Below, piece by piece: positions 15,791 to 26,100 of a DNA stretch of 64,000 nucleotides (its first letter is position 1; every line of letters starts with the position of its first letter). The stretch is from Paenibacillus puerhi (GTDB taxonomy: Bacteria; Bacillota; Bacilli; Paenibacillales; NBRC-103111): positions 1 to 64,000 of the forward strand of contig NZ_WUWM01000015.1 of NCBI RefSeq assembly GCF_009846885.1, given 5' to 3'. The notes below the pieces were generated by a model that saw only the letters and a program-made list of their open reading frames with translations, was not told where the DNA came from and ran no database searches. A program made the position numbers and the translations under genes.

Positions 15791-17086
15791 ATGCTTAGGT
15801 GTATGATCCTCGGAGAGGAGGGGCTTACCCTGAGAACAGACAGCGTTGACGTGCTCTCGGTTATTTCTTCGAACATTTACGATTGCGCCACCCGGATCAT
15901 GAATATGGTCGCCCGGATGATGGATGCTAATACATTCTGTATCGCCAGCAATGACAGGTTGACAACCACCGTTCTTTCTTCCTTTAACCGCGAACTCGTG
16001 ATGCTTGAAGAGGGGCTGGTTGTCGATAACGAAGAATCTTACTGCCATCTGGTCATTCAAAAGTCGGAAGGTCCTCTAATTATTGCCGATAATCTGACCC
16101 ATCCGCTTACCAAAGATATGGATGCTACGAAATTCGTCGGAGGCTGCTCTTTCTTGGGCGTCCCCATTGTGACCTTGAAAGGCGAAGTATTCGGCTCTTT
16201 ATGTGCCTTTGACCATAAGTACTATGCGTATAGCGAGCAGGATGTAGAGCTTCTGGAGTCGTTGGCGGTTTTCTTTGCCAATGTCCTGGAGCTGGAAGAT
16301 ACGATGCGAAGCTTGAAGGCAGCACAGGAAGAGAATATGAGAATAGTAGAGGAAAAATCGAATTTATTGGCTGTCATGAGCCATGAGATCCGGACACCCA
16401 TGAATGGCGTGATCGGGATGACGGACCTGCTGCAGACGACGGATTTGACCTCCGAGCAAAAAGACTATGTAGGTGTTATCAAAACGAGCGGACATTCGCT
16501 TCTTTCCATGGTAGACCGGATTCTGGAGTATGCTAAGGTGGAATCCGAGCAATTGGAGCTGAGCAGGTCTGCTTTCTCCATACGCTATGAGGTCAAGCAG
16601 GTCATAGACTTATTCGCCTTCGAAGCTGCCCGGAAGGGGATTCGGATCCATAGCGTGATTGCCCCTCACGTACCGGAGCTGCTCTTAGGAGATGCGGAGA
16701 AGATCCGACAGATTCTGATCAATCTGGTGAGCAATGCAGCCAAGTTCACGGAGCACGGTGAAGTGATTCTGCAAGTGAACAGGAATGCCGCGCACACAAA
16801 GTCGGCATTCACGGAGTTGTTTTTTTCCGTAAAGGATACCGGAATCGGCATTCCCGCCGACCGTAGGGAGCGGCTGTTCCGGACCTTCTCCCAAGTGTAC
16901 GATCCTGCCCAGCGCAGGGAATATGGGGGCACAGGGCTGGGATTATCCATCTGCAAGATGCTGGTAGAACGTATGGAGGGGCGTATCTGGCTGGAGGAGT
17001 CCGTGGATTCGGGAGCATGCTTTTCCTTCATTCTTCCCTTGGAAGTGCCGAGCGACCAGGCCGAGCCTGCGAGCTTGCTCGGATAA
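15791..17086 (+). CDS. Sensor histidine kinase with N-terminal GAF domain
   Basis: Residues about 20-170 form a GAF domain (FLGVPIVTLKGEVFGSLCAFD), followed by a short coiled coil. The dimerisation domain has the H-box with phospho-acceptor His198 (MSHEIRTPMNG). The ATPase domain has the N-box LINLVSNAAKF, G1 DTGIGIP and G2 GGTGLGLSI. There is no membrane segment, so it is a cytosolic kinase. No response regulator lies next to it and there is no receiver domain. Start is uncertain: ATG 15791, ATG 15803 and CTG 15830 (behind GAGGAGGGG) are all in frame. Confidence 0.9.
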   Translation: MLRCMILGEEGLTLRTDSVDVLSVISSNIYDCATRIMNMVARMMDANTFCIASNDRLTTTVLSSFNRELVMLEEGLVVDNEESYCHLVIQKSEGPLIIADNLTHPLTKDMDATKFVGGCSFLGVPIVTLKGEVFGSLCAFDHKYYAYSEQDVELLESLAVFFANVLELEDTMRSLKAAQEENMRIVEEKSNLLAVMSHEIRTPMNGVIGMTDLLQTTDLTSEQKDYVGVIKTSGHSLLSMVDRILEYAKVESEQLELSRSAFSIRYEVKQVIDLFAFEAARKGIRIHSVIAPHVPELLLGDAEKIRQILINLVSNAAKFTEHGEVILQVNRNAAHTKSAFTELFFSVKDTGIGIPADRRERLFRTFSQVYDPAQRREYGGTGLGLSICKMLVERMEGRIWLEESVDSGACFSFILPLEVPSDQAEPASLLG

Positions 17087-17861: not shown

Positions 17862-17890
17862 TTGTCAGTTAACTGGGAACCTCCTATAAT
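17862..17890 (+). promoter_or_regulatory. sigma-A promoter of the PilZ riboswitch transcript
   Basis: TTGTCA at 17862-17867 and a perfect TATAAT at 17885-17890 are separated by 17 bases. Transcription should begin near 17897, about 60 bases before the riboswitch aptamer. Confidence 0.8.
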
Positions 17891-17956
17891 GAAAGTAATG
17901 AATTAGGCACATATACCCATATACTTGATGATGGATCATAGTCACGAAGTCTATCT

Positions 17957-18113
17957 CATTCGTTTTAAACTGGCAAACCTGCCGAAAGGCAGGGACGCAA
18001 AGCTTAGGGTCTAAGGTCCTCCCCGCGGAGAGGCTAAGACAGCCTGGCCGCCGAATGTACGTCTCGTATCGGTGAACAGGCTGTTATCTCGGCATTCGAG
18101 AAACGGCTTTTTT
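17957..18113 (+). promoter_or_regulatory. Cyclic-di-GMP-I (GEMM) riboswitch with terminator
   Basis: The aptamer (about 17957-18060) has the GEMM-I conserved parts in order: GGCAAACC, the P2 hairpin CTGCC-GAAA-GGCAG, GGGACGCAAAGC, the GGTCTAAGG region, GCTAAGAC and GCCTGGCCGCCGA. CATTCG (17957-17962) can pair with CGAATG (18052-18057) to close the aptamer. The same CGAATG and the preceding GCCG (18047-18050) can instead pair with CATTCG (18093-18098) and CGGC (18104-18107), which runs into six T residues. These two folds exclude each other, which suggests that ligand binding prevents termination (an ON switch); that direction is inferred. Confidence 0.88.
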
Positions 18114-18152
18114 CATTTGTCGACGAACATGGAGAAGGAGAGGCGCGCAGTT

Positions 18153-18866
18153 ATGCCTAACGCAGCAAAGGAAGTAAAGCGGATATCCTATGAATCCCCT
18201 CAAGAAATGTACCGGAGCACCAGCGGGATTCTACTGAACAGTCGGACGGTCGTCGAGAAACAGGAGTTTGTATCGACAGGCATTCTTACTTATGCCGAAG
18301 GCGATATTCTGGAAATCGAAATATCCGACTATAAAGCGTTCGATCTGGGGGATTCCGTGAAGATGACGGTGTATTCGCCGGGAGGAGTCTATACGTTCCA
18401 GTCGACCGTTGTCGCTAAGGATCATGGCGCTCTGATGGTGATCAACCCTCCGCAGAATCAAAAACGGTTTGCCGAGAAACGTGAAAATCCGCGGGTGGAA
18501 GTGGAGCAAAGCGGACAATTGCTCGCGATCGCATACGAGAGCGGAGGCGAAGAGGAGCTCCCAGCTACCGTACCGCTCGATATTCGGAATGTCAGCGTAA
18601 GCGGGGTCGGATTCATTCTTCAGTCTGACTTAAGTCTCGCTAAACATATGACGGCGGAAGTCAAGCTGGACCTTGGCTTCGAAATGGCATGCCGTCTAGA
18701 AATCATCAGATCGGAGCCGGGAGATGCAGGTACGTATTACGGTGCCCGCTACGTAGAGATGCCGTTCGAAAAAGCGAATACCCTTCGAGCCTTTGTACTG
18801 AAAAAACAGGTCGAGCAGCATTTTAGCTCCAAGCAATCGACGAAACTGAAACGGGTATTTAAGTAA
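18153..18866 (+). CDS. PilZ-domain c-di-GMP receptor (YcgR/YpfA-like)
   Basis: The 237-residue cytosolic protein has an N-terminal YcgR-like beta domain (about residues 20-105) and a C-terminal PilZ domain. Both ligand motifs are present: Arg110-ENP-Arg114 (RxxxR) and Asn146-x-Ser148-xx-Gly151 (NxSxxG, preceded by Asp143). This layout matches flagellar-brake proteins that slow motility when c-di-GMP is high. Start is ATG 18153, nine bases after GGAGAGG. It lies behind a c-di-GMP riboswitch, so the same second messenger probably controls both its synthesis and its activity. It appears monocistronic. Confidence 0.92.
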   Translation: MPNAAKEVKRISYESPQEMYRSTSGILLNSRTVVEKQEFVSTGILTYAEGDILEIEISDYKAFDLGDSVKMTVYSPGGVYTFQSTVVAKDHGALMVINPPQNQKRFAEKRENPRVEVEQSGQLLAIAYESGGEEELPATVPLDIRNVSVSGVGFILQSDLSLAKHMTAEVKLDLGFEMACRLEIIRSEPGDAGTYYGARYVEMPFEKANTLRAFVLKKQVEQHFSSKQSTKLKRVFK

Positions 18867-25965: not shown

Positions 25966-25980
25966 GAGCTTAATGAACAA

Positions 25981-26100
25981 GACCCGATGTAACTGGCGAC
26001 AAGTGGAACCAACCACAATGGAGCATCGGGACATACGGCCGGTCGCCTGGGCAAAGAGCAGCATTTCGCGGAGTCTTTCGCGTGTGTCATGCTCTTTTTT
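25981..26100 (+). promoter_or_regulatory. ZTP (pfl) riboswitch with terminator
   Basis: The aptamer has all pfl-motif parts: P1 CCCGATG/CATCGGG (25983-25989 and 26024-26030), ACTGGCGAC, the P2 hairpin GTGG-AACCAA-CCAC, GGAGC, and the 3' element TCGCCTGGGCA (26043-26053), whose CGCC can form the pseudoknot with GGCG. A terminator follows: AAGAGCA (26054-26060) with TGCTCTT (26090-26096) and T residues to 26100. The motif senses the folate-stress signal ZMP/ZTP and normally raises expression of one-carbon genes. Here the third downstream gene is glyA. Confidence 0.9.

Follow-up and report, generated by a model that had tools for sequence, protein, structure and literature searches.

A predicted c-di-GMP OFF riboswitch before the gene of a probable c-di-GMP receptor in Paenibacillus puerhi

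When an RNA that should sense cyclic-di-GMP (c-di-GMP) stands before the gene of a protein that probably senses it too, does the signal raise or lower its own receptor? This question is posed by a PilZ gene and its leader in the window, by which we mean the whole 64,000-nt stretch analysed here, part of a 6.7 Mb draft genome (G000) of Paenibacillus puerhi. An earlier note on this DNA had answered that ligand binding prevents termination, so that high c-di-GMP raises its own receptor in a feed-forward loop that brakes motility. In this study, the folding models led us to believe that a transcriptional c-di-GMP OFF switch very likely controls the gene of the probable receptor. The aptamer class, the structures, the pairing in relatives and the conservation were computed, and from them we infer the ligand, the direction of the switch in the cell and its dynamics.

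All the features described here are on the + strand. The sigma-A-type promoter TTGTCA-17-TATAAT at 17862-17890 agrees with the consensus at 11 of 12 positions, as the near-perfect promoter described by the earlier note should, and transcription probably starts near 17897. With cmscan, the covariance model RF01051 was placed at 17962-18055, where its 74.6 bits (E 8.6e-13 for the window) exceed the gathering score of 35; this confirmed the GEMM-I aptamer that had been proposed from the letters. With P1, read from the sequence as a perfect 6-bp helix of CATTCG 17957-17962 and CGAATG 18052-18057, the c-di-GMP-I (GEMM-I) aptamer occupies 17957-18057. The motif GGCAAA at 17972-17977 has a G at the position of c-di-GMP specificity; we take the first G of this motif as the position that decides between c-di-GMP and c-AMP-GMP, the variants presumably having A there. 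Farther downstream, AAGGAG at 18135-18140 is likely the ribosome-binding site. By its sequence, the leader of the PilZ gene is a genuine c-di-GMP-I riboswitch, with c-di-GMP as the predicted ligand.

The gene itself, at 18153-18866, encodes a protein of 237 aa with a PilZ domain (Pfam PF07238, 36.3 bits against a cut-off of 22.5, 7.3e-9); the match of its YcgR-like N domain to PilZNR, 18.6 bits, is below the cut-off of 23. RxxxR and [DN]xSxxG are the ligand motifs of PilZ domains, and both were found intact, as had been claimed, in the form of RENPR (residues 110-114) and NVSVSG (residues 146-151). Among the 76 homologues of the family described below, the pattern RxxxR was present in 74, [DN]xSxxG in 75 and both in 73, and the failures were a gene with two internal stops (L088), a protein of 31% identity (L089) and one whose front part is missing (L091). 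RxxxR was sought only beyond residue 60, a search that puts the front-truncated L091 at a disadvantage, so the counts by alignment column are better: of the 76, R110 is conserved in 75, R114 in 76, N146 in 73, S148 in 75 and G151 in 76. Searches with the window protein gave no match among PDB sequences at E 0.01 and none in NCBIfam at E 0.1. Judged by its domain and motifs, the protein is a putative, and we think probable, c-di-GMP receptor. An aptamer that senses 3',3'-cGAMP and not c-di-GMP would have a precedent, as GEMM-I variants for c-AMP-GMP are known (PMC7266159). The target protein, however, carries c-di-GMP motifs, and with the G of the window in GGCAAA we consider this other ligand extremely unlikely.

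Before the PilZ gene there is an intrinsic terminator at 18078-18113, in agreement with the earlier note. The sequence AGGCUGUU-A-UCUCG-GCAUU-CGAGA-AACGGCUU (18078-18109) folds into a 13-bp stem with one bulged base, in which 18078-18091 pairs with 18097-18109, and the T run is at 18108-18113. A consensus terminator scan of the window did not list this hairpin, perhaps because of the bulged base. The free leader was folded over 17940-18120 (z -3.69, from 200 shuffles), and in its minimum-energy structure the main switching helix joins two strands. The A strand, GACAGCCUG (18038-18046), belongs to the aptamer as its 3' strand, and the T strand, CAGGCUGUU (18077-18085), shares bases with the terminator 5' arm. 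This antiterminator helix continues in an inner helix of 18049-18054 with 18069-18074, which holds a small hairpin. The partition function of the free transcript (~17897-18113) gave the antiterminator a mean pair probability of 0.98 and the terminator 0.37, which corresponds roughly to the top 5 of its 13 pairs; when the aptamer and P1 were forced, the terminator had 0.967 and the antiterminator 0.000. The terminator starts at 18078, 20 nt past the end of the aptamer at 18057. Because these two share no base, while the antiterminator uses the aptamer 3' strand, the ligand should promote termination. The same arrangement characterizes the Cd1 type, namely a T and H terminator free of aptamer strands and an antiterminator that pairs A with the terminator 5' arm.

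The earlier note had placed its three hexamers correctly, and of these CGAATG 18052-18057 and CATTCG 18093-18098 had been taken as the switching helix. This helix had a probability of 0.00, also at four transcript lengths containing both strands, and we rejected it. The second CATTCG was likewise rejected as a switching strand, with the competing hexamer found in 1 of 63 loci, that of the window itself. Nor does the window hold more copies of CATTCG than expected (42 found against 53.2). If the pairing is nevertheless taken as it was proposed, formation of P1 would leave the second CATTCG available to the terminator hairpin. An ON switch, in which ligand binding to the aptamer would suppress termination and the receptor would increase at high c-di-GMP, has a GEMM-type precedent in the c-GAMP-sensing pilM riboswitch (PMC9262584). 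However, the pilM terminator includes the aptamer 3' strand (PMC9262584), whereas that of the window begins at 18078 and survives the forced aptamer. With the proposed hexamer helix lost as well, we regard the ON switch as improbable. The sign proposed by the earlier note is most likely inverted, and high c-di-GMP is predicted to lower the receptor, not to raise it, since the ligand should terminate.

During transcription, the OFF switch would work as follows. Transcription would start at ~17897, and the aptamer (17957-18057) would emerge first. In the folds of growing transcripts, the antiterminator started to win at a transcript end of 18080 (0.42) and had won by 18085 (0.97), which suggests that the ligand would have to bind while about the next 23-28 nt past 18057 are being transcribed. 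If c-di-GMP is bound within this time, 18038-18057 would be held in the aptamer, 18078-18091 would then be free for 18097-18109, and the transcript would end at 18108-18113. With no ligand, 18038-18046 would pair with 18077-18085, the lower terminator stem would be blocked, and the PilZ gene would be read. In the free RNA that ends with the aptamer just made, the outer helix of the aptamer reached only 0.11 and P1 likewise 0.11; from the shorter 5' end at 17948 these values became 0.07 and 0.97. In the full-length transcript, the aptamer cost 5.8-6.3 kcal/mol, or 10.5-11.7 kcal/mol with P1, in the free-energy model. This low probability and the folding cost mean that the ligand, tertiary contacts and timing, which lie outside the model, must compensate.

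The conservation of the locus was evaluated in 104 genomes of the family. A scan of contigs gave 3 relatives, its named PilZ-protein matches being in Paenibacillus sp. cl123, P. cremeus and P. validus, and most homologues came instead from a protein search of the genomes, which found one in 76 of the 104 genomes, the window's own included, and in 21 of 25 within the genus. One of the 3 relatives of the contig scan (L010) was scanned, was without an aptamer, and is not counted among the 76, as its contig is exactly as long as that of L019. At the Rfam gathering score, a c-di-GMP-I aptamer was present at 65 of the 76 loci (63 with RF01051 and 2 with RF03167), always before the gene except at L091, where it is cut into the gene. 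The best promoter-like site in the 150 nt scanned before the aptamer had at least 9 of 12 consensus positions and lay 35-110 nt from the aptamer at 56 of the 65 loci, a raw count. The structure counts were made on 64 loci including that of the window, L091 with its cut aptamer having been left out beforehand. A terminator-like hairpin ended within 76 nt of the aptamer in 63 of these 64, some of the 63 hairpins being weak (L043 -6.7 and L032 -8.4 kcal/mol). With the aptamer forced, the terminator formed in 59 of the 63 loci, the exceptions being L014, L016, L018 and L044. In transcripts ending in the terminator loop, at least 5 antiterminator pairs formed in 56 of the 63 loci and fewer in the other seven; taken as single duplexes, the antiterminators were less distinctive, and for only 16 of the 63 did no more than 2 of 200 shuffles of the linker do as well. 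The free full-length RNA was also predicted to form the terminator in 39 of the 63 loci, the window not among them, so switching there must be kinetic.

These counts bear on whether the regulation still matters in this strain. It could have been lost or become minor, with the terminator acting as a constitutive attenuator and the PilZ gene placed under other signals. Aptamers are missing at 11 of the 76 homologues (L019, L020, L022, L031, L046, L050 and L086-L090), where a looser Rfam scan returned only tRNAs; L015 has a weak aptamer (39.5 bits) and no near terminator, and the near relative L014 forms no terminator when the aptamer is forced. In the window, however, all the elements are intact and the antiterminator of the free RNA reaches 0.98, and in L013, the nearest relative, the aptamer, the terminator and the antiterminator are all retained. 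We consider such a loss very improbable, and the OFF switch remains our reading of this strain. Two loci of the family are observations in their own right. At L091:397-456 (G097) the cut aptamer is followed immediately by the latter half of the PilZ gene, which looks like the result of a deletion that took the platform and the N domain together. At L088 (G073) two TGA stops interrupt the PilZ match, and the scans found no aptamer; gene and switch seem to be decaying together.

The pairing was also evaluated in an alignment of the 63 loci (63 rows, 62 distinct). In the register proposed here, 81.3% of the antiterminator cells were paired against 26.6-49.5% when the strands were slid (62 distinct rows), and 91.4% of the terminator cells against 43.3-56.9%, comparisons biased toward the unslid register because both helices were derived from the same sequences that were tested. 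The terminator covaries: 7 of its 10 pairs were changed on both sides, and 2 of 500 shuffles scored as high. For the antiterminator, 6 of 14 pairs were changed on both sides, which is not far above the shuffles, as 21 of 500 were as high. Its doubly changed cells numbered 25 against a shuffle mean of 15.5, and the slide of +3 has 28, so this measure alone is not register-specific.

At the level of the order, 296 genomes were drawn, and 111 of them, counting the 76 of the family, had a homologue at E 1e-15. Scanning of the 35 further loci revealed an aptamer at 16 (14 with RF01051 and 2 with RF03167), which gives 81 of 111 homologues in total. A terminator-like hairpin within 75 nt followed 15 of the 16 aptamers; in these 15 loci, at least 5 antiterminator pairs formed in 12 and the terminator formed with the aptamer forced in 9, which indicates that the platform is less uniform outside the family. 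The remaining aptamer, L116:1061-1147, was found with no terminator, and AGGAGG begins 10 nt past it; control may be translational there. On a quick protein tree (unrooted, with long branches flagged), the presence of the aptamer requires at least 11 changes against 26.7 in shuffles. The well-supported branches force at least 6 aptamer changes, and the same tree fits gain or loss.

Other c-di-GMP components are present in the genome. It has 22 GGDEF matches, so c-di-GMP is probably made in this bacterium, and at least 8 c-di-GMP-I sites are over the cut-off (150 of 480 candidates scored). In four aptamers an A replaces the first G of GGCAAA, which we take to mark c-AMP-GMP specificity: L037 and L044, before PilZ homologues, and L034:2456-2538 and L036:8533-8625, elsewhere in the genome of the window. 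Tandem c-di-GMP-I pairs at L033:1442-1648 and L035:5026-5236 each stand before a protein that looks secreted and transglutaminase-like by eye, a class listed as a target of tandem c-di-GMP-I riboswitches in Bacillota (PMC12452182). One more site of the genome stands before a protein that looks chemoreceptor-like by eye. Two other parts of the window were also noted. A ZMP/ZTP riboswitch (25979-26059, 59.9 bits) stands before an rpiB-like and, further on, a glyA-like frame, both named by eye, and the open frame 15791-17086, with parts that by eye are GAF-like and histidine-kinase-like, is upstream of a deaminase-like gene.

The genome has three further PilZ matches, namely a PilZNR+PilZ protein, a dehydrogenase-PilZ fusion and a small PilZ protein. 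The fusion (L092:559-1836, contig C9 of G000) is unusual, being a 3-hydroxyisobutyrate-dehydrogenase-like enzyme (PF03446, PF14833) with a C-terminal PilZ domain (1.1e-11). The PilZNR+PilZ gene lies between frames that are YpeB-like and cytidylate-kinase-like by eye, and we take this to be the gene order of DgrA/YpfA; the separate protein looks like the DgrA/YpfA counterpart. BLASTP of the window protein against this DgrA-like protein showed no similarity (best E 0.45), and with PilZNR below the cut-off the motility brake named by the earlier note is no more than a candidate role. FliG is in 101 of the 104 family genomes, so nearly universal that co-occurrence with flagella argues neither for nor against a role in motility. 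By analogy with Cd1, which represses a flagellar operon, expression at low c-di-GMP would suit a brake that is produced along with the flagella.

Under the OFF switch, high c-di-GMP would load the existing PilZ protein yet stop its synthesis, an incoherent loop; the receptor would be a product of the low-c-di-GMP state, and the response would fade under a lasting signal. More broadly, we put forward as a tentative idea, to which we give somewhat less than an even chance, that this order has for the most part (81 of 111 homologues) retained control of negative sign by an RNA receptor over a family of PilZ receptors separate from DgrA. The RNA and the protein would sense the same messenger and form an incoherent loop of two receptors by which the cell adapts to sustained c-di-GMP. 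If c-di-GMP does turn off its own protein receptor, the abundance of the receptor and its occupancy by the ligand would move in opposite directions, and a transient or band-limited response would be predicted. The RNA sensor would set the gain of the protein sensor for the same signal, and overexpression of a diguanylate cyclase in these bacteria would have to be read differently. The OFF reading thus corrects the sign that is naturally assumed and makes a named wiring diagram testable.

Among the papers listed as matches, none described a PilZ gene under a c-di-GMP riboswitch, which is weak evidence of novelty. Some related systems are known. Bc1 and Bc2 of Bacillus thuringiensis are, like the window switch, c-di-GMP-I riboswitches, in a host of the same phylum, and the platform of Bc1 (class I) includes rho-independent terminators (PMC11218506). 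The target of Bc2 is a collagen adhesion protein (PMC4933901), unlike the PilZ gene of the window, and no PilZ target was seen for either riboswitch. With the YcgR and DgrA (YpfA) motility brakes, the window protein shares the PilZ domain, the c-di-GMP motifs and, below the cut-off, the match to PilZNR, but it differs in having no BLASTP similarity to the DgrA-like protein of its own genome. The pilM riboswitch of Geobacter metallireducens, a c-GAMP ON switch, resembles the window switch in its GEMM-type aptamer and its control by a terminator; the A strand is inside the terminator of pilM and outside that of the window (PMC9262584). The closest likeness in sign is to Cd1, the c-di-GMP-I OFF switch before the flgB operon of Clostridioides difficile, which has the same aptamer class, the strand order P-A-T-H, a T+H terminator and an A+T antiterminator, with the ligand expected to terminate (PMC9262584, PMC6366702). 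The antiterminator of Cd1 is described as being stable only transiently, with refolding to the terminator over time (PMC9262584). In contrast to Cd1, whose target is a flagellar operon, the window switch stands before a PilZ gene, and its sign is a computed one. The aptamer and the PilZ receptor are both of known kinds, and their coupling is the point.
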